44,092 bases of DNA from positions 1 to 44,092 of the forward strand of contig NZ_JAHLPY010000020.1 in NCBI RefSeq assembly GCF_018918155.1. The letters run 5' to 3'. The notes beneath the pieces are model-generated. The model made no database searches. It saw nothing but the letters and a program-made list of their open reading frames with translations, and was not told where the DNA came from. A program made the position numbers and the translations under genes. How positions within the stretch are numbered: the stretch's first letter is position 1; every line of letters begins with the position of its first letter. Source of the stretch: Anaerostipes sp. MSJ-23 (GTDB lineage: Bacteria; Bacillota; Clostridia; Lachnospirales; Lachnospiraceae). Positions 7,867 to 38,857 of this stretch are shown piece by piece.

Positions 7867-7932
7867 CAGGAAAAGTCAATTATATGTATATTATGCATAT
7901 AATTTTCTAAATAAAAATGTGCACTTTATCTA

Positions 7933-7961
7933 TTGCAGAACCACTTATTATTTTTTATAAT
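7933..7961 (+). promoter_or_regulatory. Sigma-A promoter before the DAACS symporter
   Basis: TTGCAG (7933-7938), 17-bp spacer, TATAAT (7956-7961); the start of RNA would be near 7968, upstream of the terminator hairpin at 7979-8016. Confidence 0.6.
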
Positions 7962-7978
7962 GTGTTGCATAAGAAAGT

Positions 7979-8018
7979 AAAAGTTCCAAGGATGGAAATT
8001 TCCTTGGGACTTTTTTGT
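7979..8018 (+). terminator. Intrinsic terminator / attenuator between pucR and the symporter
   Basis: AAGTTCCAAGG (7981-7991) pairs with CCTTGGGACTT (8002-8012) with one G-U pair, followed by a T-run. It ends the pucR transcript, but the symporter promoter lies upstream of it, so it could also attenuate the symporter gene. Confidence 0.75.
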
Positions 8019-8042
8019 GTTTACAAAAGAAAGGAGATTTAT

Positions 8043-9358: not shown

Positions 9359-11248
9359 TTATGATAATTCCAATTTTCCTGTATATAACTGGTAATAGGT
9401 TCCTTTCATCTTAATTAAATCTTCATGATCACCTCGTTCAATGATCCTTCCATGCTCAAGAACAATAATTGCATCACTATTTCGAATGGTAGAAAGCCTA
9501 TGAGCAATCACAAATACCGTACGTCCTTTCATCAGATTATCCATACCTCTTTGTACAATACTCTCTGTACGAGTATCAATGCTTGAGGTTGCCTCATCAA
9601 GAATCAACACTGGCGGATTGGCTACTGCGGCTCTTGCAATAGAAAGGAGCTGTCTCTGTCCCTGTGAAAGTCCTTCTCCATCCCCACTAATCATCGTATC
9701 ATATCCATTTGGAAGCATTTTAATAAATTGATCAGCATGTGCCAATCTAGCTGCTCCATAAACTTCCTCATCTGTCGCATCTAAATTTCCATAACGAATA
9801 TTTTCTTTGATCGTTCCTGTAAACAAATGTGTATCTTGCAATACGATTCCAAGAGAACGTCTCAAATCATCTTTCTTAATCTTCTTAATGTTAATTCCAT
9901 CATATCGAATTTTACCATCCTGAATATCATAAAATCTATTAATCAGATTTGTAATTGTTGTCTTACCAGCACCAGTAGAACCTACAAAAGCAAGTTTTTG
10001 TCCAGGTTTTGCAAATAAACTAATATCGTGAAGAATCACTTTATCCTCATTGTATCCAAAAGTAACATCTTCAAAACGTACATCTCCTGTTAATTCTGTA
10101 TAAGAGACAGATCCATCTGCAGAATGCGGATGTTTCCATGCCCACATGCCAGTTCTTTCTTTGCATTCAACAATATTTCCACTTTCATCTTTTTTTGCAT
10201 TAACAAGTGTTACATATCCTTCATCTTCTTCCGGTTTTTCGTCAATCAATGCAAAGATACGCTCTGCACCAGCCAACGCCATAACAATCGAGTTAAACTG
10301 CTGCGCTACCTGCATAAACGGCTGTGTAAAACTCTTCGTAAACTGAAGGTAAGAGGCCATAACACCAAGAGTAATTCCTCCAACACCTTCAACCGCAAGA
10401 ACACCTCCAAATACTGCAGTCAGAACAAACTGAAGATTTCCAATATTTCCAATCACAGGTCCCATCATATTAGCATATTTATTAGCGCTTGCTGCACTTT
10501 CAAACAATGCTTCATTTAACTGATCAAACTCTAATTCTGATTTGCGTTCATGATTAAATACCTTGATAACACGTTGACCATTCATACGTTCTTCAATAAA
10601 TCCTGTTACATCCGCCAAGGATTTCTGCTGACGAATAAAGTATTTTCCACTATTTCCTCCAATTGCTTTTGTTACAACTAACATAATTCCAATAACGATT
10701 ACCGCAAGAATTGTCAATAAAGGACTTAATACCAACATTGAAATAAAAGTTACAATAATCGTAAAGAAGGACATCAAAGCCTGTGGAATTGCCTGACTAA
10801 TCATCTGACGCAGAGTATCTGTGTCATTCGTATATAAACTCATAATAGATCCATTTGTATTCTGGTCAAAATAGCGGATCGGCAATGTCTGCATATGTTC
10901 AAACATATCATCTCTAACACGTTTTAAAACACCCTGACCAATATAAACCATCATTCTTGTATAAATAAACGTTGCAATAACTCCCGCTGCAAAAATACAT
11001 CCAAGCACTGCCATTGCATGATAGAAGTTTGTAAAATCTGGATGACTATGTCCAACCAGCGGAAGGATAAAATCATCCAGCATAAACTTCAGAGAAAGTG
11101 ATACAGACACAGATGCCGCTGCACTAATAAAAATGCAAACAAAAACAAGAATAAATTGTAACTTATAGGTTTCTGTTACATATTTCAAAAGACGCTTTGC
11201 AGTCTTGAGAGTATTTTTTGAAACTACTTTTTTCTGTTCTTTATTCAT
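9359..11248 (-). CDS. Heterodimeric ABC multidrug exporter, catalytic half (TM288/LmrD/BmrD-like)
   Basis: 629 residues: membrane domain (about 30-345, six hydrophobic spans) and nucleotide-binding domain (about 390-625). Walker A is GSTGAGKTT, signature LSQGQRQ, Walker B LILDEATSSID with the catalytic Glu, H-loop IAHRLSTI. The LSQGQ signature with an intact Glu and His is what the catalytic partner of heterodimeric exporters such as LmrCD, BmrCD and TM287/288 shows. It overlaps the partner gene by eight bases. It probably exports drugs or lipophilic compounds; the substrate cannot be told. Confidence 0.93.
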   Translation of the reverse strand: MNKEQKKVVSKNTLKTAKRLLKYVTETYKLQFILVFVCIFISAAASVSVSLSLKFMLDDFILPLVGHSHPDFTNFYHAMAVLGCIFAAGVIATFIYTRMMVYIGQGVLKRVRDDMFEHMQTLPIRYFDQNTNGSIMSLYTNDTDTLRQMISQAIPQALMSFFTIIVTFISMLVLSPLLTILAVIVIGIMLVVTKAIGGNSGKYFIRQQKSLADVTGFIEERMNGQRVIKVFNHERKSELEFDQLNEALFESAASANKYANMMGPVIGNIGNLQFVLTAVFGGVLAVEGVGGITLGVMASYLQFTKSFTQPFMQVAQQFNSIVMALAGAERIFALIDEKPEEDEGYVTLVNAKKDESGNIVECKERTGMWAWKHPHSADGSVSYTELTGDVRFEDVTFGYNEDKVILHDISLFAKPGQKLAFVGSTGAGKTTITNLINRFYDIQDGKIRYDGINIKKIKKDDLRRSLGIVLQDTHLFTGTIKENIRYGNLDATDEEVYGAARLAHADQFIKMLPNGYDTMISGDGEGLSQGQRQLLSIARAAVANPPVLILDEATSSIDTRTESIVQRGMDNLMKGRTVFVIAHRLSTIRNSDAIIVLEHGRIIERGDHEDLIKMKGTYYQLYTGKLELS

Positions 11249-12974
11249 CGTCTTCTCCTCCTTTCACCTGTGATTCATATACTTCTCTATAAATATCGTT
11301 TGTCTTTAATAATTCTTCTGATGTTCCAACACCCATAATCTTTCCATTATCTAATACAATGATTTGATCAGCATCTTCAATAGAAGAAACTCTCTGAGCA
11401 ATAATAATCTTTGTTGTATCCGGAATTTCCTCACGAAAAGCTTTTCGAATAAGTGCATCCGTTTTTGTATCAACTGCACTCGTAGAGTCATCAAGAATCA
11501 AAATCTTTGGTTTCTTTAATAATGCACGAGCAATACAAAGTCTTTGTTTCTGCCCACCAGAAACATTATTTCCACCCTGCACAATCTTTGTATTATATCC
11601 TGCAGGAAATTCATTTACAAATCCATCTGCCTGAGCTAATTGACACATTCTCTGGACTTCTTCATCTGTTGCATTTTCATCACCCCAGCGAATATTTTCA
11701 TAAATGGTCCCTGTAAACAATACATTTTTCTGAAGCACCATGGAAACTTGGTCTCTTAACACTTCCAAATTGTAATCACGAACATCTACACCACCAACTT
11801 TTACACATCCTTCTGTAACATCGTAAAGCCTTGGTATCAACTGAACCAATGTTGATTTTGCACTTCCAGTTCCACCGATAATACCAATGGTCTGTCCGGA
11901 TTTAATGTGAAGGTTCACATCTTTTAAAGAAAGATTTCCGCCTTCTCCTGCATAACTGAAGTTTACATGATCAAAAATAATTTCTCCGTCTTTTACTTCT
12001 GTAATTGCATTTGCCTTATCCTGCATTTCAGGTACTTCTGTTAATACTTCAGTAATACGGTCTGTTGAAGCTTCTGCAATCATAATCATAACAAAGACAA
12101 AAGTAACCATCATCAAAGACATCAAAATCTGCATAGCATATACAATAATACTCGTCAGCTCTCCCGTTTCCATTGTACCATGAACAATACCTGTTCCACC
12201 AATAGATACCAGAATCAATACAACAACATACATTGTAAACTGCATAACTGGTGAGTTCCAAGCAACGATCTTCTCTGCCTTTGTAAAAAGTTTGTATACA
12301 TATTTAGAAATTCCATGAAATTTATCAATTTCATAATCTTCTCTTACAAATGCCTTTACAACACGAGAAGCATTTACATTTTCCTGCACAGAATTATTTA
12401 ATACATCATATTCATCAAATACTTTAATAAAATGAGGATGTGCTTTTTTTGCAATAAACATCAATGTTCCGCCTAGTAGTGGGATAACAATTAAAAATAG
12501 TAATGCAACAGTTTTACTATAAGTTAATGTCATCACCCAAGATAAAATAATCATAATCGGGGCCCTTGCAAGCAATCGAATACTCATCATATAGGCCATC
12601 TGAATATTTGTAATATCTGTTGTCATTCTAGTAACAAGACCTGATGTTGCAAAGTGATCAATATTTTTGAAAGAAAATTGTTGTACTTTATAGAAAATAT
12701 CATGACGAAGGTTTTTCGCATATCCAGCACCTGCAACAGCTGCCGTATTTCCAGCAGAGATACCGAAAAACAACGCAAGCATTGCCATAATTACAAGGAT
12801 AATACCTCGTTGAATAATATAGTGTAAATCTCCATGCGCCATACCGACATCAATGATCTTTGCCATTTCCATCGGAATTAAAACTTCCATCAATACCTCG
12901 AGAACAACCAAAATCGGAGTGAGTAGCGATTGTTTTTTATATTCTCGGACTGACTGTAGTAAAGTCTTATTCAT
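11241..12974 (-). CDS. Heterodimeric ABC multidrug exporter, degenerate half (TM287/LmrC/BmrC-like)
   Basis: 577 residues: six-span membrane domain (about 15-305) and nucleotide-binding domain (about 330-570). Walker A GGTGSAKST, signature VSGGQKQ, Walker B LILDDSTSAVD, where Asp replaces the catalytic Glu, and IIAQRVSSI, where Gln replaces the switch His. These two changes are the known mark of the degenerate half of asymmetric exporters and predict one active ATP site per dimer. Overlaps the MarR gene upstream and the partner gene downstream by eight bases each. Confidence 0.93.
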   Translation of the reverse strand: MNKTLLQSVREYKKQSLLTPILVVLEVLMEVLIPMEMAKIIDVGMAHGDLHYIIQRGIILVIMAMLALFFGISAGNTAAVAGAGYAKNLRHDIFYKVQQFSFKNIDHFATSGLVTRMTTDITNIQMAYMMSIRLLARAPIMIILSWVMTLTYSKTVALLFLIVIPLLGGTLMFIAKKAHPHFIKVFDEYDVLNNSVQENVNASRVVKAFVREDYEIDKFHGISKYVYKLFTKAEKIVAWNSPVMQFTMYVVVLILVSIGGTGIVHGTMETGELTSIIVYAMQILMSLMMVTFVFVMIMIAEASTDRITEVLTEVPEMQDKANAITEVKDGEIIFDHVNFSYAGEGGNLSLKDVNLHIKSGQTIGIIGGTGSAKSTLVQLIPRLYDVTEGCVKVGGVDVRDYNLEVLRDQVSMVLQKNVLFTGTIYENIRWGDENATDEEVQRMCQLAQADGFVNEFPAGYNTKIVQGGNNVSGGQKQRLCIARALLKKPKILILDDSTSAVDTKTDALIRKAFREEIPDTTKIIIAQRVSSIEDADQIIVLDNGKIMGVGTSEELLKTNDIYREVYESQVKGGEDDE

Positions 12975-13449
12975 CTTTTTTTACTTCCTCCTTGTCTCTT
13001 TTTATAAGATTTTGTAACACATGATATAAAACTTGTTTACAGGTTATTACATCTTCATCTGGAATTCCCTCTACCATTAGCTTTTCATTTCGTTTAATAT
13101 CTTCTAAAATTGCAACTCGAAGATCTTCTGCTTTCGCTGTTGGTACAAGTCGTTTCTTTCTTGCATCTTCTTTTGCACTTTCACGTGTCAGAAACCCATT
13201 TTTCTCCATTAATTGTACATAGCCTGTCACTGTGGATTTTCGGATTTGAAATTCTTCCTCAATGTCCTTTTGATAAATGTCCCTGTGCATTGTTTCTAAT
13301 AAAATAAACTTTAAAATATGCTTCTGCATAATCGTTAAATCCTCATTGATTACTTTATCGATTGGATAATTTCTCTTCATTTCATGCGACAACATATGAA
13401 TCAATTTTCCCATATGAATGTTGTTTATTTTATTATTTATATCTTGCAT
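12967..13449 (-). CDS. MarR-family regulator of the ABC exporter operon
   Basis: 160 residues with a winged helix: helix pair EEEFQIRKSTVTGYVQLMEKNGFLTRESAKEDARKKRLVPT (about 66-106) holds the DNA-recognition helix and the D-R-K/R wing typical of MarR. First gene of the marR-ABC-ABC operon. Start ATG 13449 follows SD AAAGGAG; an earlier ATG in the SD area is out of frame. A palindromic operator lies in its own promoter (13472-13485), so autorepression released by a drug-like ligand is likely. Confidence 0.9.
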   Translation of the reverse strand: MQDINNKINNIHMGKLIHMLSHEMKRNYPIDKVINEDLTIMQKHILKFILLETMHRDIYQKDIEEEFQIRKSTVTGYVQLMEKNGFLTRESAKEDARKKRLVPTAKAEDLRVAILEDIKRNEKLMVEGIPDEDVITCKQVLYHVLQNLIKRDKEEVKKDE

Positions 13450-13635: not shown

Positions 13636-13676
13636 TTGTTGACACAACAAATCCTGTTTGGGATAACAGGCATTTT
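13636..13676 (-). other. Tandem hairpins after oadA
   Basis: TTGTTG-ACA-CAACAA (13636-13650) is a perfect palindrome, and CCTGTT/AACAGG form a second stem just after the oadA stop. They could be 3' end processing or termination structures; no more can be said. Confidence 0.35.
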
Positions 13677-15089
13677 TTAGACTGGATAAGCTCCATTTTC
13701 CATGTCAGCTTTTCCAAGATCAATTTTATTTTTCTGTGCTGCACGATATTTAAAGAAATCAGTTGCTACCTGTGGAAAAAGCGCATAGGACAATACATCT
13801 TCATCTTGCTCTTTCCATTGTGCCATTTCTTTTTCAAGTTTCTCGAGTTCTGGTTCCAGAGTATCTGCCAATCTACATGTAATCGGTTTTTCATCCCCAA
13901 TTGCTTTTTTCTGGATTTCTTTGTTTACCGGTTTTACTGTTTGACCATATTTTCCCTGTAACAGATCTTTTGATTCTTTTGTAATCATCTTATAACGTTC
14001 TCCAGCCAGCACATTTAATACAGCTTGAGTTCCAACAATCTGGCTGGATGGTGTTACAAGTGGCGGTTCTCCAAAGTCTTTTCTGACTCTTGGAATTTCT
14101 GCCAGTACATCATAATATTTATCAGATGCTCCCTGTTCTTTTAACTGGGATAACAGGTTAGAAAGCATTCCTCCTGGCACCTGATACATTAATGTCTTAA
14201 TATTGACACCTAATGCCCTTGGATTCAATAATCCAGATTCAATTGCATCTTCTCGAATCGGACGGAAATAATCCGCAATTTCACCTAACAGCTGCATATC
14301 AAGCCCTGCATCATATGGTGTTCCCTTAAATGTTTCCACCATAACTTCAGTCGCAGGTTGAGATGTTCCAAGTGCAAATGGTGAAATCGCTGTGTCGACC
14401 ATATCGACTCCTGCTTCTACTGCCCTCATATATGTCATCGATGCAACACCACTTGTATAATGGGTATGCAGATCGATCGGAAGACTTGTTGCTTCCTTTA
14501 AAGCCTCCACAAGACGCGTTGCTTCATATGGAACAAGTAATCCTGCCATATCTTTAATACAAAGAGAATCCGCTCCCATATCTTCAATTCGTTTCGCTGT
14601 TTCTTTCCAATAATCTAATGTATAAGCATCTCCCAGTGTATAAGCAAGTGCAACCTGGGCATGTCCTTTTTCTTTATTTGCTGCCTTCACTGCTGTCTCC
14701 AAATTACGAAGATCATTTAGACAGTCAAAAATACGAATAATATCAATTCCATTCGCAATGGATTTTTGCACAAAATATTCTACAACATCATCTGCATATG
14801 GCCGATATCCAAGGATATTCTGCCCACGGAACAACATTTGTAATTTTGTATGTTTAAAACCATCACGTAATTTACGAAGTCTCTCCCATGGATCTTCTTT
14901 TAAGAATCTTAAAGAAGCATCAAAAGTAGCTCCTCCCCAACATTCTACTGCATGGTATCCAACCTGATCCATTTTATCAATGATTGGTAACATCTGTTCT
15001 GTTGTCATTCTTGTTGCGATCAATGACTGATGTCCGTCACGCAGTACAGTTTCTACGATTTTTATTGGTTTTTTCCCTTTTTCAGACAT
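13677..15089 (-). CDS. oadA: Oxaloacetate decarboxylase alpha / 5S-type carboxyltransferase subunit
   Basis: 470 residues, the biotin-free form (the carrier is a separate gene). TIM-barrel carboxyltransferase with metal ligands in ETVLRDGHQS and DLHTHYTSG, and the carbamylated Lys in SLCIKDMAG. It moves the carboxyl of oxaloacetate to biotin, releasing pyruvate in the cytoplasm. The C-terminal conserved domain (about 300-450: LMYQVPGGMLSNLLSQLKEQG) is complete. Last gene of the five-gene operon 18392-13677. Shares fold with pyruvate carboxylase and transcarboxylase 5S; in this company an oxaloacetate decarboxylase role is most likely. Confidence 0.92.
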   Translation of the reverse strand: MSEKGKKPIKIVETVLRDGHQSLIATRMTTEQMLPIIDKMDQVGYHAVECWGGATFDASLRFLKEDPWERLRKLRDGFKHTKLQMLFRGQNILGYRPYADDVVEYFVQKSIANGIDIIRIFDCLNDLRNLETAVKAANKEKGHAQVALAYTLGDAYTLDYWKETAKRIEDMGADSLCIKDMAGLLVPYEATRLVEALKEATSLPIDLHTHYTSGVASMTYMRAVEAGVDMVDTAISPFALGTSQPATEVMVETFKGTPYDAGLDMQLLGEIADYFRPIREDAIESGLLNPRALGVNIKTLMYQVPGGMLSNLLSQLKEQGASDKYYDVLAEIPRVRKDFGEPPLVTPSSQIVGTQAVLNVLAGERYKMITKESKDLLQGKYGQTVKPVNKEIQKKAIGDEKPITCRLADTLEPELEKLEKEMAQWKEQDEDVLSYALFPQVATDFFKYRAAQKNKIDLGKADMENGAYPV

Positions 15090-15110
15090 AATCTATTCTA
15101 CTTCCTTTCC

Positions 15111-16232
15111 TTAAACTCCGAAAATAGCCATAAAGATTCCGGCTGCTACAGCTGTTCCGATAACTCCTGCCACATTTGGTCCCATCGCATGCATCAGAAG
15201 GAAATTTGATGGATCCGCTTCTGCTCCAACCTTCTGGGATACTCTGGCTGCCATTGGCACTGCTGATACTCCGGCAGAACCAATTAGTGGGTTTACTTTT
15301 CCATGTGTCAGTTTGCACATCAGCTTTCCAAAAAGAACTCCGCTGGCTGTTCCAACAGCAAATGCAATTAACCCTAAAATAACAATTTTGATTGTACTAA
15401 CATTTAAGAAGGCTTCAGCACTTGTTGTCGCTCCTACCGATGTTCCAAGAATAATAACAACAATATACATTAATGCATTTGATGCAGTATCAGATAACTG
15501 CTTTACAACTCCACTTTCACGGAATAAATTTCCAAGCATTAACATACCAACCAGTGGTGCTGTTGTCGGAAGGATTAAACAAACAATAATTGTTACAATT
15601 ACTGGGAATAAAATCTTTTCAGTCTTTGAAACCGGACGAAGCTGTTCCATTTTTATTTTACGTTCTTCTTCCGTTGTCAGTAATTTCATAATTGGTGGCT
15701 GAATAATTGGTACCAAAGACATATAAGAATATGCCGCTACAGCAATTGGTCCCATATAAGCAGTCTGTCCAAGTTTTCCCGCAAGGAAAATGGAAGTTGG
15801 TCCATCCGCTCCTCCAATAATAGAAATTGCTGCTGCTTTATCTGGAAATTTCATAAAAATTGCCAAAAAATATGCCGCATAAATTCCAAATTGAGCTGCC
15901 GCTCCAAGAAGAAAGCTCTTCGGATTGGCAATCAATGGTCCAAAATCTGTCAAAGCTCCAACTCCAAGAAAGATCAGAGATGGAAGAATACTCCACTCAT
16001 CTAACAGATAAAAATAATGTAACAACCCGCCTTCCTGCATAATCTGCGGATATAAATTTACCAGTAACATTCCAAAAGAAATCGGCACTAATAATAATGG
16101 TTCATACTGTTTTGCAATCGCCAAATATAAGAAAACTAGTGCGACTACGATCATAATGAAATTTCCTGGTTTCAAAAAAGCAAAACCGGTCTGATTTGCC
16201 AGATTGGTCATGGTATTAATAACATAACTCAT
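15111..16232 (-). CDS. oadB: Sodium-pumping decarboxylase beta subunit
   Basis: 373-residue integral membrane protein of the OadB/MmdB/GcdB family. It decarboxylates carboxybiotin and couples this to Na+ export. Family stretches visible: [59 protein letters not shown] and [19 protein letters not shown] in GADGP and the GNLFRE region belong to the conserved Na+ path. Length is the usual one. SD GGAGG precedes the ATG. It works with the OadG-like and carrier subunits encoded just upstream. Confidence 0.94.
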
Positions 16233-16257
16233 AGAATTTCCTCCATTCAGGCAATGA

Positions 16258-16620
16258 CTAATCCATCGTTGCTAATACGTCTCCACTTTCAACACTGTCA
16301 CCTGATGCAACATTGATGCTCGCTACTGTTCCATCCTGTGGTGCACAGATTTCATTTTCCATTTTCATTGCTTCCAGTACCATTAAAACATCACCTTTTT
16401 TTACTGCCTGTCCTGCAGATGCTTTTACTGAAAGAATATTTCCAGGCATTGGTGAATTAATTTTTACTGCACCTTCTCCGCCAGCAGATGCTGCTTTTTT
16501 TGGTGCTGGTGCTTTTGGTGCAGGTGCTGAAGTTGCTATTGGAGCAGATACTCCTTCTCCTGTTTCTTCCACTGCAACATCATAAGATACCCCATTGACT
16601 GTAATTCTATAATTCTTCAT
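16258..16620 (-). CDS. Biotin carboxyl carrier subunit of the sodium pump
   Basis: 120 residues: a short N-terminal strand region ([19 protein letters not shown]), an Ala/Pro-rich hinge (about 24-48: [19 protein letters not shown]) and a C-terminal biotinyl domain with [11 protein letters not shown], whose Lys is the biotin site. Matches MmdC/GcdC-like carriers. It shuttles CO2 between the soluble transferases and the OadB membrane subunit. Since the operon has two transferases and only this carrier, both probably use it. Confidence 0.93.
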
Positions 16621-16638
16621 AAATAACCTCCAAATAAT

Positions 16639-16965
16639 CTAAGCTCTTCTTCCACCAACACGATGGATGGATCTTACTACTAATTTATCTTCACTCGTAA
16701 CATCTTTTGCAGACGCCATAATTGCTGCTGTAATAACGGCAATTAACTGTTCATCTTCTTCCTGAGATACCTCCACAACCGGCTGCTTTTGTTCTTTTGT
16801 TATTTCCTGAACAGGTTCCGGTTTTTTCCCAGCATTTTTTATTTTCTCTTCCAACTTTGGTATATACACAAATAGGGAAATCAATAATGAAATAAAGATT
16901 AACATTACAAAAACGGTTCCCATTCCCATCAAGGTATTTGCCAATGCGGTCGTCATATGTTCCAT
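16639..16965 (-). CDS. OadG/MmdD-like small membrane subunit
   Basis: 108 residues with one N-terminal transmembrane helix (about 11-36: TLMGMGTVFVMLIFISLLISLFVYIPKLE), a charged Pro-rich linker and a C-terminal segment (AVITAAIMASAKDV) ending VRSIHRVGGRRA. This is the layout of the OadG / methylmalonyl-CoA decarboxylase delta family, which anchors the soluble transferase to the pump. Sits 14 bases after the MmdA-like gene, which suggests it binds that subunit. Confidence 0.88.
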   Translation of the reverse strand: MEHMTTALANTLMGMGTVFVMLIFISLLISLFVYIPKLEEKIKNAGKKPEPVQEITKEQKQPVVEVSQEEDEQLIAVITAAIMASAKDVTSEDKLVVRSIHRVGGRRA

Positions 16966-16979
16966 AACCCGTCACCTCT

Positions 16980-18392
16980 CTAAATGGTTGTATGTTTTTT
17001 ATCTTCCGTTTTCTGCTTTTTACCATAAAGCATTTCATATGCCATGATCAGACGTTTTCTCGTAGCATCCGGAATAATAATATCATCAATCGCACCACGT
17101 TTTGCTGCGCTCTCGGCACTGTTCTGCATCTGTGCATACTCTTTCGTTTTTTCTGCAATCAATCCAAGCTGATCATCATTTTCTGCAATCTCTTTTGCAT
17201 ACATGATTCGTACAGCCTGTTCCGGATCCATCATTCCAATGCTTGCCGTAGGCCAAGCAAGAACAAAATCGGCTCCAATTGATTTAGAATTCATAATAAT
17301 TCCTGCCGTACCAAAAGCCTTTCCAACAATTAAATTTACTTTTGGCACAGTACAGCTAATCATTTCTTTCGTAAAGATAGCAAGTGCCCTTGCCATTTTT
17401 CTTTCTTCTTCACGACTCGTTTTCATTCCTTCTACATCAGTTACTGTTAATACCGGAATTGAAAATGCATCACAGAATTTTAAAAATCTGGTTGCCTGAT
17501 CAATTGCTGCTGTCTCAAGTGTACAGACGCCATTCGTTGGATGATTTGCAATTGCTCCTACCGTTTCTCCATTTAATTTAATAAATCCAATCACAACACT
17601 TGTTGCAACTTCTTTTTTTACCTGAACAAATAAATGATTATCAGAGATTGCCTGTAATAAATAATCTGCCTGATATGGTGTATCATTTAATTCTGGAATC
17701 ACACGATTGAGGTCATCACTACAATCGGATAAAACATTTCCTGATTCATAATCGGAAGGAAGAATGCTAACCAATTGACGAAGATCTGTCAGTAACTCTT
17801 CTTCTGAATCACACATAAAATCAATATTTTCAAGCTCATCTTTTTGAACTTCTTTCGCATCTAATCTCTCATTTTCCAACGTATTCGGACTATTAATAAA
17901 TAAGGAACCCTGATTACGTTCCATAAATGTAAAATCTGACATGGAGGACATGACTGCACATCCACCTCCGCACATACCAAATACCGCACTGATTTGAACA
18001 ATTTTACCAGAAGCCTGTCCCTGTTTTGCAAAAATAGTTCCGAATGCATCTAGTGCATCCGAAGCTTCCTGTAATCGGATCCCCGCACAATCAATCATTC
18101 CAATCACTGGTGCCCCTGTTTTAATCGCTAAATCATAAAGAGCTACAATTTTTTTTGCATGCATTTCACCAACAGAACCTCCAAGTGCAGATGCATCCTG
18201 GCTGTATACATAAACCATACGGCCATCCATAACACCGTATCCTGTAATGACACCATCTCCTGGCACTTTTTTAGAATCCAGATTGTAATCTGTATTTCGT
18301 GCTGTGACTAATTTACCGATCTCAACAAAACTGTTGTCATCAAGCAAATATTCGATTCTCTCCCTAGCACTCATTTTACCCTTTGCCATCAC
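16980..18392 (-). CDS. MmdA/12S-type acyl-CoA carboxyltransferase
   Basis: 470 residues of the carboxyl transferase (PccB/MmdA) fold with two crotonase-like halves. Oxyanion-hole loops are seen in FGMCGGGCAVMSS and VGKAFGTAGIIM, plus GGSVGEMHAKKI and VYSQD. It is shorter than PccB (about 510-530). Family members move the carboxyl of methylmalonyl-CoA or malonyl-CoA to biotin. First gene of the operon, behind its own promoter (18450-18478). With OadA, biotin carrier and pump in the same operon it could give a combined decarboxylase or a transcarboxylase; the acyl-CoA substrate is unknown. Confidence 0.85.
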   Translation of the reverse strand: MMAKGKMSARERIEYLLDDNSFVEIGKLVTARNTDYNLDSKKVPGDGVITGYGVMDGRMVYVYSQDASALGGSVGEMHAKKIVALYDLAIKTGAPVIGMIDCAGIRLQEASDALDAFGTIFAKQGQASGKIVQISAVFGMCGGGCAVMSSMSDFTFMERNQGSLFINSPNTLENERLDAKEVQKDELENIDFMCDSEEELLTDLRQLVSILPSDYESGNVLSDCSDDLNRVIPELNDTPYQADYLLQAISDNHLFVQVKKEVATSVVIGFIKLNGETVGAIANHPTNGVCTLETAAIDQATRFLKFCDAFSIPVLTVTDVEGMKTSREEERKMARALAIFTKEMISCTVPKVNLIVGKAFGTAGIIMNSKSIGADFVLAWPTASIGMMDPEQAVRIMYAKEIAENDDQLGLIAEKTKEYAQMQNSAESAAKRGAIDDIIIPDATRKRLIMAYEMLYGKKQKTEDKKHTTI

Positions 18393-18429
18393 TTTTCCTC
18401 CTGATTATTTTATTGTTAATATATGATAA

Positions 18430-18507
18430 TGTATCCATTTCTTGTGTCTAATATAAAACAGAACGCCACTAAAGTCAACCTTATTTTTCATAATTCGGCA
18501 TTCTGCC
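18430..18507 (-). promoter_or_regulatory. Promoter of the Na+-pump operon with two operator-like sites
   Basis: Minus strand: TTGACT (18473-18478), 17-bp spacer, TATATT (18450-18455). The box TGTATCCA (18430-18437 on the plus strand) lies at about +6 to +13. An 11-bp palindrome GGCA-N3-TGCC (18497-18507) lies at about -60. The same arrangement is found before the DASS-ttdAB operon (22896-22973). Confidence 0.75.
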
Positions 18508-18545
18508 TTATTTTTTTAACAAAAATTATATAATTTTACCAGTAT

Positions 18546-19196
18546 TTATTCATATCTTGTTAACATATCTTCCATACTACGATAAATATGATGTCTCATT
18601 TCTTTTCTAGAAGCCTCCGCGTCACGACGCTCCATTGCTTCATAAATTGCCTTATGTTCTTCATTTGATCTTTTTGCATATTTTTCTACTGTCGACTTGA
18701 TGCCCATAGATAAACCATTCCATAATTCAGCTAACATCTGCTGCATTTTTTCATTTCCAGCTGCACGCCAAATTTCATAATGAAAGGACTGATTATAATT
18801 CACAAAGCTTCCAAAGTCATCTTTCTCCAGTGCCTTTGTCGCAGATGTCAAACAATTTTTAATTGCAGATAAATCTGCACCTATCTCACAACAAATTTCA
18901 CAAGCTTCACTTTCCAAAGCTGCTCTTACCTGATAATGGTTTCGAATCGTTGTCTCATTCAATCCAAGAACAATTGCACCTTTATTTTGTTTTAATTCAA
19001 TAAGCCCATCTCGTGCAAGAATTTGAAAAGCTTCCCTGACAGGGGTAATCGATACTCCAAGTTCCTGCGCTGTTGTATCCAATGTCAGTGATTCTCCTTC
19101 TTGTATTTTTTTTGAAATAATTGCCTCACGAAGAGCCGATGCTACTCTTTCCCTTGCAGGAAGTAATTTAATTGGTTTTAATCCTAACATACTCAT
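18546..19196 (-). CDS. GntR/FCD-family regulator, second of a pair
   Basis: 216 residues: N-terminal GntR winged helix (about 15-80; LDTTAQELGVSITPVREAFQILARDGLIEL) and a C-terminal all-helical FCD effector domain (about 90-212) with metal/ligand-type residues in HYQVRAALESEA, NQSFHYEIWRAAGN and EEHKAIYEAM. FCD regulators usually sense organic acids. Its ATG overlaps the stop of the first GntR gene (ATGA, 19193-19196), so both are made together. It probably controls the tartrate/decarboxylase operons on either side, as repressor or activator. Confidence 0.9.
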   Translation of the reverse strand: MSMLGLKPIKLLPARERVASALREAIISKKIQEGESLTLDTTAQELGVSITPVREAFQILARDGLIELKQNKGAIVLGLNETTIRNHYQVRAALESEACEICCEIGADLSAIKNCLTSATKALEKDDFGSFVNYNQSFHYEIWRAAGNEKMQQMLAELWNGLSMGIKSTVEKYAKRSNEEHKAIYEAMERRDAEASRKEMRHHIYRSMEDMLTRYE

Positions 19197-19774
19197 ACCC
19201 TCTCTTTCATAATCGTACTTAAAATTTCTTTATAATATTTCCTCAATACTTCCAAAAGGTCTCCCTCTCTTCCCTTCTGGAAATCTTTCACTGCCTCAAG
19301 AAGCATTGCTCCATTTGCTTTATTATAAGAAAAGCTATTAACTGCAAAAGAAACATAAATTTCTATTACTGTTTCCAACATTTTCTTTTGAAAACTATAA
19401 GGATATTTCTCATATAAGAATTTATGAAAATTCATTTCTTCGGTTGGTAGAATTATGTCATCTTCAGCCGTATCCAAAACATATAATATTGCATCTTTTT
19501 CAATATGAATACATAATTCAAAAATTTTGCGAAAGTATTCCTCTGATAATTGAGCCACTCGTACATGATTATTGGGCAATCGATCAATAAGCCCCTGATA
19601 TTCCAACAAAATCAATGCTTCACGAACTGGCATACGTGATACACCAAGACTCGTTGCCAATTCATTTTGTGTCATCTCGGTACCGCTTGGTATATTACCC
19701 AGCAGGATTTCATGTTTTAAGATCTCGACAACACTTCCCTGCTTCTTCTGGATTTTAATTTTTTCCATCTTCAC
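19193..19774 (-). CDS. GntR-family regulator, first of a pair
   Basis: 193 residues. The GntR winged helix (about 10-75: GTEMTQNELATSLGVSRMPVREALILLEYQGLIDR) is intact. The C-terminal part (about 85-190) is short for an FCD domain and lacks most of its usual His/Asp set, so the effector site may differ from its partner's. The promoter (19814-19842) overlaps a TGTATCCA box, suggesting autoregulation. Lies between the dehydratase operon and the sodium-pump operon. Confidence 0.88.
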   Translation of the reverse strand: MKMEKIKIQKKQGSVVEILKHEILLGNIPSGTEMTQNELATSLGVSRMPVREALILLEYQGLIDRLPNNHVRVAQLSEEYFRKIFELCIHIEKDAILYVLDTAEDDIILPTEEMNFHKFLYEKYPYSFQKKMLETVIEIYVSFAVNSFSYNKANGAMLLEAVKDFQKGREGDLLEVLRKYYKEILSTIMKERV

Positions 19775-19813
19775 GATATCATTTCCCCTTTAAATTTCTT
19801 TTTTGTTACTTAT

Positions 19814-19842
19814 ATTGTATCCATTTTTTTCTGTTTCGTAAA
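19814..19842 (-). promoter_or_regulatory. gntR-pair promoter overlapped by a TGTATCCA box
   Basis: Minus strand: TTTACG (19837-19842), 17-bp spacer, TACAAT (19814-19819). The box TGTATCCA (19816-19823) overlaps the -10, as expected for autorepression. Confidence 0.6.
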
Positions 19843-19873
19843 GAACTTCCGATGAAAATTAAATTCATTTGAA

Positions 19874-19908
19874 AACCCCTGCTATCTTACGGTAACAGGG
19901 GTTCTTTT
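19874..19908 (-). terminator. Terminator of the DASS-ttdAB operon
   Basis: AACCCCTG (19874-19881) pairs with CAGGGGTT (19896-19903); the loop holds a smaller TTAC/GTAA stem. About 50 bases after the ttdB stop. Confidence 0.8.
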
Positions 19909-19958
19909 GAATGTACATATGAGTTATAAGGAAAATTTGACATGGTTTTAAATGTCTT

Positions 19959-20585
19959 TTATTTAATGAATCCTACATGTTTGCAGATTTCTTCAATGGC
20001 TTTATCTTTTCTCTGATTAAAAATCACTTTATTTTCTTCAAACAGATTGCGGCCTTCTGAATCGATAGATACGATCAGCGGTCCAAATTCTTTTACATGA
20101 CAATGCCATAATGTTTCTGGCATTCCAAGATCTCTCCACTGGGCTTCAACAATCTCTTCTACTTCTGTTGCTGCCACAACAGCATTTCCAGCTGGGAATA
20201 CACAATGAATTGCCTTGAAATTCTTACATGCATATTCTGTATTTGGTCCCATTCCTCCCTTTCCAATGATGACTTTTACTCCCGTCTGCTCTACAAATTC
20301 TTTTTCGAATTTTTCCATACGCATACTTGTTGTTGGTCCTACAGAAACCATTTCAAATTTATCATCCTCCAATGGACGAATGATTGGTCCTGCATGAAAA
20401 ATTGCAGCATCTCTTACATCAACAGGAAGTTCTCTTCCTTCTTCTACTAAACGACGATGTGCAACATCACGGCAAGTTGTCATATCTCCATTTAAGTAAA
20501 TAATATCTCCAATATGAATATCTGCCAAATCCTCTGCTGAAATTGGTGTTGTTAAAATTTTCTTTCCATCTTTTACTTCTACCAT
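19959..20585 (-). CDS. ttdB: L(+)-tartrate dehydratase beta subunit (or class I fumarase beta)
   Basis: 208 residues, close in wording to E. coli TtdB as I remember it: [77 protein letters not shown]-like [18 protein letters not shown] and a C-terminal [11 protein letters not shown]. It forms the swivel domain that completes the Fe-S lyase with the alpha subunit. The start overlaps the ttdA stop (TAATG). A class I fumarase would look similar; the match across the whole length and the oxaloacetate decarboxylase nearby favour tartrate. Confidence 0.85.
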
Positions 20586-21484
20586 TATAAGGTCACCCCC
20601 GTATGTGTTGTGATTTTATAGTTCAAATCTTTATCAAAAATAATGTGTCCACGTCTGTGGGACCAGCATCCGACATTTACTGCAACTCCGATTGCAGATG
20701 GATGTCTTGCTGTATTTTCAATATGAACACCCATAACGGAATATTTTCCACCCATTCCCTGAGGTCCAAGACCGATATCATTGATTCCTTTTTCCAAAAG
20801 TTCTTCCATATAAGCAGCTCTTTCATTATCATTATGGCTTCCCAGAGGACGCATCAATGCTTTCTTAGAAAGAAGTGCTGCTGTTTCTACAGAAGTTGCA
20901 ACTCCAACACCTACTAATAATGGAGGACAGGCATTTAATCCATAAGATGTCATAACATCCATAACAAATTTTGTAACACCTTCATATCCTGCACCTGGCA
21001 TTAATACCATTGCTTTTCCTGGAAGTGTACATCCACCACCTGCCATGTAGGCATAGATTTCACATTCATCACTATCTGGCACAATATCCCAGAATACCGT
21101 TGGTGTTCCTTTTCCGACATTTTTTCCTGTGTTATATTCATCAAATGTTTCAACACTATTATGACGAAGAGGTGCTTCAAATGTTGCTTTTACAACTGCT
21201 TCTTTTAATAATGGTTCCAGTTCCCCGATTAATGGAAAATTTGTTCCACATTTTACCCAGAACTGAAGAACTCCTGTATCCTGACAGCTTGGACGATTTA
21301 ATTCTTTTGCCAGTTTCTGGTTCTGTTTCATTGTTTTATAAATCGTCTTGGATAATGGACTGTCTTCTTTCTCAGCTAATTCATCTAATTTTTTAATAAT
21401 GTCATCTGGCAATACTTTTCCAATATATGACACAAAATTTGCCATATAATTGGTAAGCTGTTCTACCTGTTCTTTTTTACTCAT
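20585..21484 (-). CDS. ttdA: L(+)-tartrate dehydratase alpha subunit (or class I fumarase alpha)
   Basis: 299 residues, the TtdA length (303 in E. coli). Fe-S cluster cysteines are likely in [19 protein letters not shown] and GGGCTLPG / [11 protein letters not shown]. Stretches [40 protein letters not shown] and [16 protein letters not shown] follow TtdA closely. The reaction is removal of water from L-tartrate to give oxaloacetate; the 4Fe-4S site makes it oxygen sensitive, suited to an anaerobe. Second gene after the SLC13-type importer. Fumarase activity cannot be ruled out from sequence alone. Confidence 0.87.
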
Positions 21485-21555
21485 TATTTCCCTCCTGAAA
21501 TTTTTATAATAAAATATTTTTGTTTACATAATTTTGATATTTCCATGTTTTTGTT

Positions 21556-22827
21556 CTATGGATAGAACGGAAATGCAATCGGTAAAATAATCATACTGAT
21601 CACAGTTGCGATAATAATCAATGGAAATCCGGATTTTACATAATCCATAAAAGTATATCCCCCGGCTCCGACAACCATTGTATTTGCAGGCATTCCGATT
21701 GGTGTTGCATAAGCACAAGAACCTCCAATAACGCATGCCATTAATACTGCTCTTGGGTCTGCTCCCATTCCTTGAGCGATCGAAATACAAATCGGAACCA
21801 TCAATGCAGTTGTTGCAGTATTCGACATAAAGTTTGTCATAATACAACATAAAATAAACACTACAAATGTTAATACGTATGGAGATGGATGATTTCCTAA
21901 AGCTCCTATTACTTTATCTGCAATTAACTGACCTGCTCCCGTTTTATCCAAAGCAGAAGCAAGCGATAAAGTTCCTCCAAATAAAAAGATTGTTTTTAAA
22001 TCAATTGATTTTAATGCTTCTTTTTCTGAAATAACTCCAGTCACAATCAAAGCCAGTGCTCCCAGGCATCCCGCAATACATAATTTAATTCCTGTCTGTT
22101 CTTCAAAAATCATTCCAAGTAATGTCAGTACAAGGATAATCAGTGATAAAACTTGTTTCCACTTTGGAACATTACTAAAATCTTTTACTTCATCAAAAAC
22201 ACTATCATCATCTTCTGGTGGATTCTTGTCTGGAAGAAGTCGAAAACCAATCGTTGCATAAAAGATAATCCCTACGATTAAAATTGGAAGACCAACAATA
22301 GCATACTCAAAAAATCCAAAAGAAAGATTGATATTTTTTAAAGCACTCTGAGCAATTAGGTTTCCAGGTGCTCCGATCAAGGAAAGATTTCCTCCCATCG
22401 CTGCTGCAAAAACAAGTGGCATTAAAAGCTTAGATCTTTTATACCCTGATTTTGCTGCAATTCCAATAACTACTGGAATTAAAACAGCTGCTGTTCCCGT
22501 GTTTGATAACACTCCGCTCATAAAACCTACGATTATCATAATTGTTACAATAAGCATGCGCTCAGATTTTGCGAACTTTGTAACAATACCGCCGATTTTA
22601 TTAGCCATACCAGTTTCAAATAATGCTCCTCCTACGATAAACATTGCCACAAACAAAATAACATTGCTGTCAATAAAGCCCGCAAATGCTGTCTGTATGT
22701 CAAGAACTCCAGTCACGACCAATCCACAACAGACAATCATGGATGTTAATCCCAATGGAATCTTCTCAAGTACAAACATTACAACCGCAAATAGGAGAAA
22801 TAATAAAGTAATGGTTGATGGACTCAT
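21556..22827 (-). CDS. SLC13/DASS-type dicarboxylate transporter
   Basis: 423-residue membrane protein with about 11 spans in two inverted halves. The two substrate-binding SNT motifs are visible: LSNTGTAAVLIPV and MSNTATTALMVP. AMGGNLSLIGAPGNLIAQ and GGSCAYATPIGMPANTMV are typical re-entrant regions of this superfamily (SLC13/CitMHS). First gene of the operon with ttdAB, so it most likely brings tartrate or a related C4-dicarboxylate into the cell, by Na+ symport or exchange. SD GGGAGG fits ATG 22827. Confidence 0.88.
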   Translation of the reverse strand: MSPSTITLLFLLFAVVMFVLEKIPLGLTSMIVCCGLVVTGVLDIQTAFAGFIDSNVILFVAMFIVGGALFETGMANKIGGIVTKFAKSERMLIVTIMIIVGFMSGVLSNTGTAAVLIPVVIGIAAKSGYKRSKLLMPLVFAAAMGGNLSLIGAPGNLIAQSALKNINLSFGFFEYAIVGLPILIVGIIFYATIGFRLLPDKNPPEDDDSVFDEVKDFSNVPKWKQVLSLIILVLTLLGMIFEEQTGIKLCIAGCLGALALIVTGVISEKEALKSIDLKTIFLFGGTLSLASALDKTGAGQLIADKVIGALGNHPSPYVLTFVVFILCCIMTNFMSNTATTALMVPICISIAQGMGADPRAVLMACVIGGSCAYATPIGMPANTMVVGAGGYTFMDYVKSGFPLIIIATVISMIILPIAFPFYP

Positions 22828-22895
22828 GTAAATACCTCCCTTTTTATGAATTCACGATCTACATCATCTTATTTTTGATCTTTTATATTTGATAA

Positions 22896-22973
22896 TGTAT
22901 CCATTTCTTAATTATTACTATAAAGCAGATTTGGCATGATGTCAATCTATATTTAACAATTCAGCAATCTGCT
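22896..22973 (-). promoter_or_regulatory. Promoter of the DASS-ttdAB operon with two operator-like sites
   Basis: Minus strand: TTGACA (22940-22945), 17-bp spacer, TATAGT (22917-22922). TGTATCCA (22896-22903 on the plus strand) lies a few bases after the expected start of RNA. The palindrome AGCA-N3-TGCT (22963-22973) lies at about -60. About 100 bases align with the promoter at 18420-18510. Confidence 0.78.
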
Positions 22974-23061
22974 CTATTTAAAGATAGCGTTTTTGTTCAA
23001 CTTTACCAAGGTCCCATATGATAACTTTTTTCTTATGTATTTTATAACTCTTCTTTTTCAA

Positions 23062-23093: not shown

Positions 23094-23163
23094 TTATTCT
23101 CATCCATGTTAAAGTTCTCGTATAAATAAACATAAGATTTTGAAAATGAAGGAAGGTACTATT

Positions 23164-24117
23164 ATGATTTCTGAACAAACACTTTCCCGCGAGGAAGCAA
23201 TTAAAATTTTAAATACACCAAATGAAGAACTAAACCATTTAATTGATCAGGCAGGAGCTCTTCGTAAAAAATATAAAGGGAACCATGTAAGCATTCATTT
23301 ACTGACAAATGCTCGTAGCGGAAATTGTTCTCAAAATTGCGCATACTGTGCCCAATCCTGCCGTTCTCATGCAGACATTGATAAATATAAATGGGTTGAT
23401 GATGATAAGCTTTATGGCGATAATACGTTTGTTCATGATCATAATCTTTCCAGACATTGTATCGGTCTAAGCGGTATGAAATTTAATGATGAAGAAATTG
23501 AAGAACTTGCAAAAAAAATTCGAAAAATGAAAGAAGAAGGCACCCATCTTTGCTGCTCTATTGGATTTTTGACAAAAAAACAAGCCTTAATTTTAAAAGA
23601 AGCCGGCCTTGACCGCATCAACCACAATCTGAATACAAGCCGTTCTAATTATCCAAATATTTGTACAACACATACCTATGAACAACGCGTAAACAATATC
23701 CATATGCTTCAAGATCTTGGTTTTGAAATCTGTAGCGGAGGTATTATTGGAATGGGTGAAAGCAAAGAAGACGTTGTTGACATGTTACTGGATCTTCGTG
23801 AAATCCAGCCAGAAGCTCTGCCAATTAATTTTCTCATTCCAATTCCAGGAACACCACTGGAAGGAACGGACACTTCTAAATTGACACCAGAATATTGTAT
23901 GAAAGTTTTATGTCTTGCAAGATTGATGGTTCCAAAAGCTGATATTCGATGCGCTGCTGGCCGTGAAATTTACTTTAAAGGCATTGAAAAACAATTATTG
24001 ACGGTTGTGAACTCAATTTTTGCCTCTGGTTATTTGACTGCAGATGGACAAGGAATTGAAGATACAATAAAAACTATTACTGATGCAGGATTTACCTGCG
24101 AAGTAGAATCTGATTAA
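23164..24117 (+). CDS. bioB: Biotin synthase (radical SAM)
   Basis: 317 residues from ATG 23164, placed by SD GGAAGG eight bases upstream; the open frame reaches back to 23140 but that start lacks an SD. The radical-SAM cluster motif is NCSQNCAYCAQSC (CxxxCxxC). GGIIGMGESKEDVVDM, INFLIPIPGTPLEG and RCAAGRE (the Arg near the 2Fe-2S site) are BioB marks. It inserts sulfur into dethiobiotin. No other bio genes are nearby. Its place next to a biotin-dependent decarboxylase operon suggests cofactor supply. Confidence 0.93.
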   Translation: MISEQTLSREEAIKILNTPNEELNHLIDQAGALRKKYKGNHVSIHLLTNARSGNCSQNCAYCAQSCRSHADIDKYKWVDDDKLYGDNTFVHDHNLSRHCIGLSGMKFNDEEIEELAKKIRKMKEEGTHLCCSIGFLTKKQALILKEAGLDRINHNLNTSRSNYPNICTTHTYEQRVNNIHMLQDLGFEICSGGIIGMGESKEDVVDMLLDLREIQPEALPINFLIPIPGTPLEGTDTSKLTPEYCMKVLCLARLMVPKADIRCAAGREIYFKGIEKQLLTVVNSIFASGYLTADGQGIEDTIKTITDAGFTCEVESD

Positions 24118-24196: not shown

Positions 24197-25304
24197 CTAC
24201 AAAGTCTGAAAGAACTTTAACATCTCTTCACTCCATTCTTTCGCTGAACATCCGTATCCAAGTCCAATTCCATGATCTCCCTGTGGATAAATTTGACACA
24301 AATGTTTTACATTTGCTTCTTCCAACTTCTGATCAAGGCGAATTGTATTGCTTACCGGCACACAACCATCATCTTCATTTGCAAATGCATACGTTGGTGG
24401 ATAATGTCGATCTATATGTAATTCTATCGATAATTTTTCTTTTAATTCTGGTTTCTCTCCTGTCAGATTTATATAACTTCCTTCATGATAATCTTCTGAA
24501 AAACTAATAACCGGATACAATAATCCTAATGCATCAGGCCTGGCAGATATTTTCTCATATTTTTGTTTTAGAGCTTGCTGATTTTCCATATTGATATTCA
24601 AAAGTCTCCTAACTACTTCTTCTTTTAGTTCTTTATGAAGATATGCTTCACTAGCACAGAGATGTCCGCCAGCTGAAGCTCCAACAATAAAAATCTTTTC
24701 TGGGTCAATTCCATATTCCTGTGCATGAGCACGTACGTGTAAAATTGCCATTGCAAGATCCATCTGTGGCTGTGGATATGTATTAGGACGAATTCGATAA
24801 TTTAATACGAACCCTTTATAACCTCCATCTCTTTCCATTCGTTGCGCCAGTTGAATTCCTTCGGAATAATAAGAAAGCATTTCATATCCACCTCCTGGGC
24901 AAAAGATAACTGCCGGGCGCTTATTCCCATAAGAACATTTTTCTTTTTCTGACACTGCATTTGACGGATAAGGCGGGATCGATCCATTTCCAGAAGTATG
25001 AGCAAAAGCCTGTGAATCTCTTTGAGGATTTCCAGTAAATAACCAAACACTCTCCTCACAATTTCCATCTGCATCTGGAATCCATCCAGATGAAAAATTC
25101 AAAGTTTCTTGTTCTTTCCATAATGGCACAAAACAAAAGCTCTGATCATGTACAGTTTTCATTAAAAGATTTGCACATTCTACAAAAGGCTCTGACCAAA
25201 AATCTTGTCCCCATTCCATTTTATCTTCTTTCGCAATTTCCAATAGCTCTTTGCACAGGTTCTGTTTTCATAATATTTGTCATTGTATCTTTTTCTGTAA
25301 ACAT
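24197..25304 (-). pseudogene. Alpha/beta hydrolase (esterase), probable N-terminal frameshift
   Basis: The main frame (24197-25243, 348 residues) is an Aes/BD-FAE-type esterase: oxyanion HGGG-like CPGGGYEMLS, nucleophile GASAGGH, Asp in FANEDDGCVP and His in GDHGIGLG. The 25243 start is a weak TTG with no SD. Upstream, ATG 25304 with SD AAAGGA opens a frame (MFTEKDTMTNIMKTEP) that joins LLEIAKEDKMEWG one base off near 25245-25255, so a one-base frameshift is likely. All catalytic residues lie downstream. Substrate unknown; it shares an upstream region with a TGTATCCA box. Confidence 0.7.
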
Positions 25305-25368
25305 AGTTAAAGTCCTTTCTTTTTGTCTTAAAGATAACGTTTGCTGTCATATAAAAAAACAAATATAT

Positions 25369-25376
25369 TGTATCCA
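25369..25376. promoter_or_regulatory. Fourth TGTATCCA box, between esterase and SulP genes
   Basis: Exact copy of the box found in the tartrate-island promoters. It overlaps a candidate -35 (TTGGAT, 25372-25377) for the minus-strand esterase and lies about 60 bases before the SulP transcription start. Eight bases can recur by chance in AT-rich DNA. Confidence 0.4.
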
Positions 25377-25508
25377 ATTTTAAACATTCGCTTTTTCTAT
25401 TTCTTAACGCTTTCTTTATATGCTATACTCTTAACGTTGCTGTCACCAGCAGCCGTCGTCAAAGTTAATTACACTATAGCACAAAAGAAAGGATATTACG
25501 TACGTATA

Positions 25509-38675: not shown

Positions 38676-38707
38676 AACGTCATAAAAATTTTAGAAGAAT
38701 CGAATGA

Positions 38708-38857
38708 AAAATCCGGGAGAGATTATGATTAAAACATAACGCCGAAGGGGCAGACGCAATAAACTCTCAGGCAAAAGGACCGAATTTCGACGATACTCTG
38801 GAGAGCAATGGGGCACCGAAGAAGTAAAAATCTTTCAGGTTGAACAAGACAGAGGCG
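38708..38857 (+). ncRNA. Tandem glycine riboswitch (gcvT element)
   Basis: Aptamer I (about 38708-38790) shows GGGAGAG, CGCCGAAGGGGCA, CTCTCAGGCAAAAGGAC. Aptamer II (about 38793-38857) follows at once with ACTCTGGAGAG, GGCACCGAAG, TCTTTCAGGT and ACAGAGG. Both match the known glycine-binding consensus, aptamer II with a shortened internal part. It is followed by a long terminator, so glycine binding probably controls read-through into glyA. Confidence 0.93.

Follow-up and report, generated by a model that had tools for sequence, protein, structure and literature searches.

A predicted L-tartrate utilisation island with a five-gene Na+ pump behind a shared operator-like site in Anaerostipes sp. 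MSJ-23

Gene content of the island and identity of the dehydratase

We analyzed a 44,092-nucleotide stretch of Anaerostipes sp. MSJ-23, a member of the family Lachnospiraceae (contig NZ_JAHLPY010000020.1 of assembly GCF_018918155.1; the whole stretch is hereafter called the window), and focused on a predicted L-tartrate utilisation island of ten open reading frames on the minus strand (positions 13677–22827). The genome comprises 2.52 Mb in 47 contigs and is 99.4% complete. In the order of transcription, the island consists of genes for a DASS/SLC13 symporter, ttdA, ttdB, two overlapping GntR genes, an mmdA-like gene, an oadG-like gene, a biotin carrier gene, oadB and oadA, and the promoter-like and operator-like sites (Table 1) suggest three transcription units rather than one. 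An FCD domain was detectable in the GntR protein at 18546–19196 alone. The sequence-only reading that this analysis followed up had named an SLC13 importer, a TtdA/TtdB-like dehydratase, two GntR regulators and a five-gene biotin-dependent Na+ decarboxylase, all on the minus strand, and strong family matches bear out this inventory. Its five-gene Na+ decarboxylase operon stands as a gene set, with the refinement that it includes two distinct carboxyltransferases, an OadA-like and an MmdA-like one, which had gone unmentioned, as had the operator-like site shared by the units.

Table 1. Genes and operator-like sites of the island, with positions in the window and supporting matches
Feature	Position	Strand	Evidence
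DASS/SLC13-type symporter, TtdU-like, predicted L-tartrate importer	21556..22827	-	TIGR00785 227 bits vs cut-off 198.6; PF03600
TtdA, L(+)-tartrate dehydratase alpha subunit	20585..21484	-	PRK08230 550.5 bits vs cut-off 365
TtdB, L(+)-tartrate dehydratase beta subunit	19959..20585	-	PRK08228 371.2 bits vs cut-off 264
GntR regulator 2, TtdW-like, divergent C-terminal part	19193..19774	-	PF00392
GntR/FCD regulator 1, TtdV-like	18546..19196	-	PF00392 + PF07729
MmdA-like (12S-type) carboxyltransferase pump subunit, fast-diverging	16980..18389	-	PF01039 342 bits; TIGR01117 421.5, below cut-off 998.8
OadG-family small membrane subunit	16639..16965	-	TIGR01195 42.4 bits vs cut-off 36.05; PF04277
Biotin carrier subunit	16258..16620	-	PF00364 75 bits
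OadB, membrane subunit, predicted carboxybiotin decarboxylation and Na+ transport	15111..16232	-	PF03977 508 bits; TIGR01109 484 vs cut-off 190.6
OadA-type (5S) carboxyltransferase without fused biotin domain	13677..15089	-	PRK12331 761 bits vs cut-off 718
Operator-like site before transporter-ttdAB unit	22890..22909	-	few bases after TTGACA-17-TATAGT promoter-like site (22945-22917)
Operator-like site before GntR pair	19810..19829	-	overlaps -10-like TACAAT
Operator-like site before pump unit	18424..18443	-	few bases after TTGACT-17-TATATT promoter-like site (18478-18450)

Both TtdA and TtdB scored well above the curated equivalog cut-offs for L(+)-tartrate dehydratase (Table 1), whereas TtdA missed the class I fumarase model PRK06246 (238.7 versus a cut-off of 276). 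The island TtdA shares 78% identity with Salmonella TtdA and 57% with E. coli TtdA, as against 34% with the separate fumarase encoded elsewhere in the same genome (contig C17) and 26% with FumA; TtdB is 76% identical to Salmonella TtdB and 67% identical to that of E. coli, compared with 37% for the genome's own fumarase. In a 37-row tree of the kind that the sequence-only reading had proposed, the 25 tartrate-type rows, including the island TtdA, formed one side of a branch opposite the 12 fumarase rows (support 100/99), and the nearest sequence to the island TtdA came from genome G191 (94% identity); the stem between the two sides is very long (4.95) and the bootstrap was unsettled. We defined diagnostic columns as those in which one letter is common to all 22 other tartrate-type rows and a different one to at least 11 of the 12 fumarase-type rows, the island TtdA being left out of the choice. 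It carries the tartrate letter in 20 of the 20 columns, two of which are gaps, and the fumarase letter in none; the identical 20 columns were obtained when the island TtdA was counted among the tartrate rows. Cys67, Cys186 and Cys273 of TtdA are common to 23 tartrate-type and 12 fumarase-type rows, whereas Cys152 is confined to tartrate-type rows and is serine in all 12 fumarases. By sequence, the dehydratase is an L-tartrate dehydratase and not a fumarase. The class I fumarase identity, which the sequence-only reading had kept as an alternative to its tartrate island, was rejected on the curated cut-offs, the identities, the tree and the diagnostic columns, and the tartrate assignment is upheld by the same evidence together with the neighbourhood shared with Salmonella.

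The record of Salmonella enterica serovar Senftenberg (NZ_LN868944.1) contains, in a single direction, GntR, GntR, SLC13 permease, ttdA, ttdB, oadG, oadA and oadB genes, and the genes of a Klebsiella aerogenes record follow the same order, some of them being annotated in pieces. The island thus resembles the Salmonella ttdVW-ttdU-ttdAB and oadGAB genes in having two GntR genes, an SLC13 carrier, ttdA, ttdB and an Na+-pumping oxaloacetate decarboxylase. The permease is 69% identical to that of Salmonella over its length, GntR 1 is 54% identical to the GntR protein adjoining the permease and GntR 2 is 30% identical to the first GntR protein; identity is lower in the pump (OadA, 50%; OadB, 51%). 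The Salmonella pump has three subunits, with the biotin part within OadA, whereas the island pump is encoded by five separate genes, including the extra MmdA-like subunit. Unlike in Salmonella, ttdB and the pump are separated by the GntR pair, and the pump is preceded by an operator-like site of its own. The E. coli ttdR-ttdA-ttdB-ttdT locus also encodes an L-tartrate dehydratase; it differs in its ttdR regulator and its carrier, TtdT, which matches the island transporter weakly (22%), and no pump lies alongside it in the stretch shown.

Passages of PMC11237755 report experiments in Salmonella Typhimurium in which TtdV and TtdW repress ttdBAU, with L-tartrate inducing and D- and meso-tartrate not inducing; TtdW binds the stretch nearest ttdU and is joined by TtdV. 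According to the same passages, oxaloacetate is converted partly to pyruvate by the decarboxylase sodium pump and partly enters fumarate respiration. We equated the GntR protein adjoining the permease with TtdV because that source speaks of a ttdV-ttdU intergenic region; the record compared here is from another serovar. The combination of a tartrate dehydratase, an Na+ pump and two GntR regulators is already known from Salmonella. As far as the literature was searched, three features are new: a family-type five-gene pump at a tartrate locus, an operator-like site that is shared across phyla and is placed before the pump as well, and two linkages of ttdAB with a pump that are probably independent.

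Operator-like site and GntR pair

Three exact copies of AARAAATGGATACAWTAT were found in the window, at positions 22892–22909, 19812–19829 and 18426–18443; when up to three mismatches were allowed, the window contained seven matches, compared with a mean of 1.0 in shuffled sequences. The sequence AAATGGATACAWTAT has three exact matches in the 2.52 Mb genome, all of them before the three predicted units of the island, the pump included; with two mismatches allowed, the genome contained 58 matches, compared with 29 for the reversed control. The promoter-like sites showed no enrichment as a class (39 versus 36.8 in shuffles).

The operator-like site also precedes the permease gene in the Salmonella and Klebsiella loci, and it was missing at the E. 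coli, Priestia and Liquorilactobacillus ttd loci examined. Among 20 further family ttd loci, from 19 genomes, the site was present in six, five of which have an adjacent GntR pair, while the sixth (L070) belongs to a genome with a pair at its other ttd locus; it was absent from the remaining 14, where BLAST reveals no GntR pair. A wider sample of the phylum contained ttd loci in 15 of 398 genomes, our own included. Of its 14 further loci, L180 alone has a detectable GntR pair; this locus also carries the site, and both are missing from the remaining 13. All these counts are uncorrected for kinship among loci, and the phylum sample is the fairer test because the pattern was derived in part from the family loci. 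The island therefore contains both a pair of neighbouring GntR genes with homology to those of Salmonella and an operator-like site before the transporter, as expected of a TtdV/TtdW-type pair.

The sequence WWTGGATACAWWATCA has 12 exact matches in six genomes, eight of which lie within ttd loci. Of the other four, two overlap a candidate start codon of a reading frame and one (L167) lies 76 bases before a membrane-protein-like frame; we suggest that all four arose by chance. The remaining one (L168, 3750–7200, genome G253) lies inside a frame that resembles, by eye, another SLC13-type carrier and is followed by one or more genes that look enolase-superfamily-like. With one mismatch, WWTGGATACAWWATCA has nine off-island matches in the Anaerostipes genome; nothing tartrate-related was found behind the six of these that were examined, by frame starts and without a family search, for a wider regulon.

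Three further observations concern such sites. A fourth, weaker operator-like site, AATTGGATACAATAT, lies at positions 25365–25382 on the minus strand, with one mismatch and without the ATCA part, close to where two divergent frames start, that of an esterase gene (24197–25243, minus strand), whose N-terminal part seems to be split over two reading frames, and that of a SulP/DauA-like transporter (25341–27149, plus strand). At locus L062 (6138–8117, genome G149), three consecutive regulator-sized genes, rather than two, precede the tartrate transporter, and the site stands before the first. Five loci lacking a GntR pair (L057, L058, L060, L061 and L066) share another element around AATGTACAA upstream of the transporter, which is perhaps the site of a different regulator.

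The five-gene pump and its relatives

The pump unit holds carboxyltransferase, biotin carrier, OadB and OadG-type subunits together. The biotin carrier contains EAMKMEN, with Lys86, which we take to be the biotinyl motif, and OadA contains LRDGHQS, IKDMAGL and HTHYTSG, presumably active-site stretches. Neither the carrier nor the MmdA-like subunit reached the cut-off of the corresponding methylmalonyl-CoA decarboxylase model (MmdC, 110.8 versus 200; TIGR01117, see Table 1). The MmdA-like subunit has both glycine-rich stretches that we assume to form its active site, and the idea that it is degenerate was not upheld because these stretches are kept. Its near-invariant Tyr363 is replaced by Gly, and 8 of 131 near-invariant columns are changed, compared with 0–7 of 131–135 in six core rows. 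Passages of PMC7274780 give Asp203, Ser382 and Asn412 as Na+-site residues of Salmonella OadB, and name Ser419 as a further residue; the first three correspond to Asp143, Ser323 and Asn353 of the island OadB, whereas Ser419 corresponds to Thr360, a threonine that is also found in the core copy described below.

The genome has two OadB genes, the other of which lies on contig C3 in a second, core pump cluster together with genes for an MmdA-like subunit, a biotin carrier and OadA; OadG was not found there by BLAST. Among the matches listed, no operator match with one mismatch stands before this core pump, and with two mismatches the nearest match listed on contig C3 is at 9829, beyond the pump cluster. 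An MmdA-like match was present in 256 of 299 family genomes, and in the 19 family loci compared the genes for the MmdA-like subunit, biotin carrier and OadB were adjacent in all 19; OadA adjoined them in 18, one contig coming to an end, and BLAST detected OadG in 14. Because of this frequency and adjacency, the five-gene pump, with its two carboxyltransferases, appears to be a module found throughout the family, of which the island bears an extra one. Gene set and order, where detected, are identical in the island, the core copy and a locus of an uncultured Lachnospiraceae bacterium (L023), whose OadA and OadB nest among genomes of the family in quick trees; a contig scan in which the MmdA-like protein was the query yielded a single locus. 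No description of such a two-carboxyltransferase module was found in the open-licence literature searched, including the available parts of PMC7145394, PMC8473912, PMC8100219 and PMC4478896.

The island subunits are 79% (OadA) and 80% (OadB) identical to those of the core copy, but the MmdA-like subunit is merely 52% identical. The end branches of the island proteins in quick trees were 0.20 for OadA (median 0.094), 0.19 for OadB (median 0.13) and 1.25 for the MmdA-like subunit (median 0.26). One other family locus (L074, genome G159) also has transporter, ttdA and ttdB genes followed by the five-gene pump on one strand, but neither a GntR pair nor an operator-like site was found at it. Its end branches were 0.28 for OadA, 0.24 for OadB and 2.24 for the MmdA-like subunit, in which 25 of 131 near-invariant columns are changed. 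It stands apart from the island in the TtdA and OadB trees and is unresolved in the OadA tree; therefore, the two loci are probably independent linkages of ttdAB with the pump.

Tartrate-type matches were found in 20 of the 299 family genomes, our own included (21 matches, 54–100% identity), and fumarase-type matches, among those listed, had 30–38% identity. The one congeneric genome sampled besides our own has the fumarase type only, among the matches listed. In a comparison with six other genera, the island TtdA shows 86–94% identity, core OadA 78–85% and core OadB 82–91%. Since TtdA identity exceeds that of core OadA and the congeneric genome has no tartrate type, the tartrate module may have moved between lineages; the range for core OadB overlaps that of TtdA, and the evidence is suggestive only.

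Proposed pathway and alternatives

From the gene identities, residues, homology to Salmonella, shared sites and second pump copy, which are features of the sequence itself, we infer a substrate, a direction of flow, a coupling to Na+, a mode of induction and repression, and a recruitment of the pump. The SLC13-type carrier would import L-tartrate, which the Fe-S dehydratase TtdAB would convert to oxaloacetate. OadA would pass the carboxyl group from oxaloacetate on to the biotin of the small carrier protein, and OadB would free it as CO2 while exporting Na+; the pyruvate left over would pass to pyruvate:ferredoxin oxidoreductase and the usual fermentation (genes for this enzyme, NifJ, and for RnfC are present in the genome). 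The two GntR proteins, as TtdV and TtdW homologues, would bind one type of operator before the importer-dehydratase, regulator and pump units, and L-tartrate would lift the repression of all three. A second set of the family's pump (mmdA-oadG-biotin carrier-oadB-oadA) would thus have been recruited under a tartrate operator. The coupling of tartrate genes to an Na+ pump, which the sequence-only reading had proposed, gains support from the shared operator-like site and the same neighbours in Salmonella (passages of PMC11237755). Overall, the locus is very probably an L-tartrate utilisation island in which tartrate genes and a family-type Na+ pump stand under a tartrate operator.

Several results weigh against this interpretation. 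A pump beside ttdAB is rare, being found in the window and at one of the 20 other family loci, and near none of the 14 loci of the wider phylum sample, where some contigs are short. The operator pattern was derived in part from loci that later entered its counts. OadA falls short of the model for the fused, Na+-extruding type, TIGR01108 (664.4 versus 756.5); the match spans 443 of 582 positions, with the biotin domain encoded by a separate gene. The MmdA-like subunit is unexplained by oxaloacetate decarboxylation. Finally, an unrooted approximately unbiased test failed to reject a constraint that placed the island TtdA on the side of the 12 fumarase rows, away from the other TtdAs (p-AU 0.349); we interpret this as misplacement of the root on a very long stem because the constraint merely asks whether the stem joins at the twig of the island TtdA.

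Among the alternatives, oxaloacetate might be mainly reduced to succinate as in E. coli, with the pump as a minor outlet or reversed and carboxylating pyruvate. The E. coli carrier gene is annotated as an L-tartrate:succinate antiporter, part of the oxaloacetate in Salmonella enters fumarate respiration, as noted above, and reversal of such pumps is named in the title of a reference of PMC7274780; however, the island transporter is unlike TtdT and the genome retains an additional pump copy downstream of the shared site, and we regard this fate as improbable. A different hydroxy-dicarboxylate, such as meso- or D-tartrate or a methylated relative, could also enter an unchanged downstream route, as family models do not test stereochemistry and the identity of the transporter to the Salmonella carrier is 69% rather than 95%. 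This is quite doubtful, given that the ttd genes of Salmonella, the nearest characterised relative, respond to L-tartrate and not to the D- or meso-forms (passages of PMC11237755) and that the operator-like site is retained. The pump might instead be an acyl-CoA decarboxylase of the methylmalonyl-CoA type, adjoining ttdAB by chance or for another pathway, as one subunit is MmdA-like and the five-gene set also occurs widely in the family at sites away from ttdAB; but OadA exceeds the oxaloacetate decarboxylase model PRK12331, the pump promoter region has the rare site of the ttd genes, which was lacking at the core copy among the matches listed, and the neighbours are the same in Salmonella, so that we find this very hard to credit. 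That TtdAB is instead a class I fumarase of two subunits, with malate or fumarate as the compounds handled by the island, is scarcely tenable, since the common superfamily (PF05681), the three common cysteines and the one unrejected grouping are set against the model scores, identities, diagnostic columns and tree.

Some features lie beside or away from the island. Next to the transporter of this biotin-dependent island, a biotin synthase gene, bioB (23140–24117, plus strand), is divergently oriented. On the other side, a few kilobases away, is a GltP/DctA-type symporter gene (7917–9296, plus strand), under curated cut-offs, and a MarR-like regulator gene followed by two MsbA-type ABC (ATP-binding cassette) exporter genes (9359–13449, minus strand) has a perfect TTGACA-17-TATAAT upstream, at 13523–13495. 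A glycine riboswitch aptamer (RF00504, 65.3 bits) lies far from the island at 38704–38792 on the plus strand, and Rfam at the gathering threshold gave nothing else.

The island offers a testable, energy-yielding tartrate pathway in a commensal-type anaerobe, which could compete with Salmonella over gut tartrate; the sequence-only reading had named plant tartrate as the source, and host-derived tartrate during infection is reported in the introduction of PMC11237755. It also provides a base-level candidate operator for TtdV/TtdW, for which passages of that paper show probe binding and give no motif. Moreover, it draws attention to a widespread Na+ pump with two carboxyltransferases. We consider it unlikely, yet worth stating, that this pump is an Na+-coupled transcarboxylase, in which OadA and the MmdA-like subunit would load and unload one biotin carrier, so that the carboxyl group of oxaloacetate derived from tartrate would serve either Na+ export by OadB or the carboxylation of an acyl-CoA. 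If so, the module found across the family would represent a novel type of biotin-dependent Na+ pump that accepts two substrates, and in the tartrate copy the acyl-CoA arm would be drifting away.

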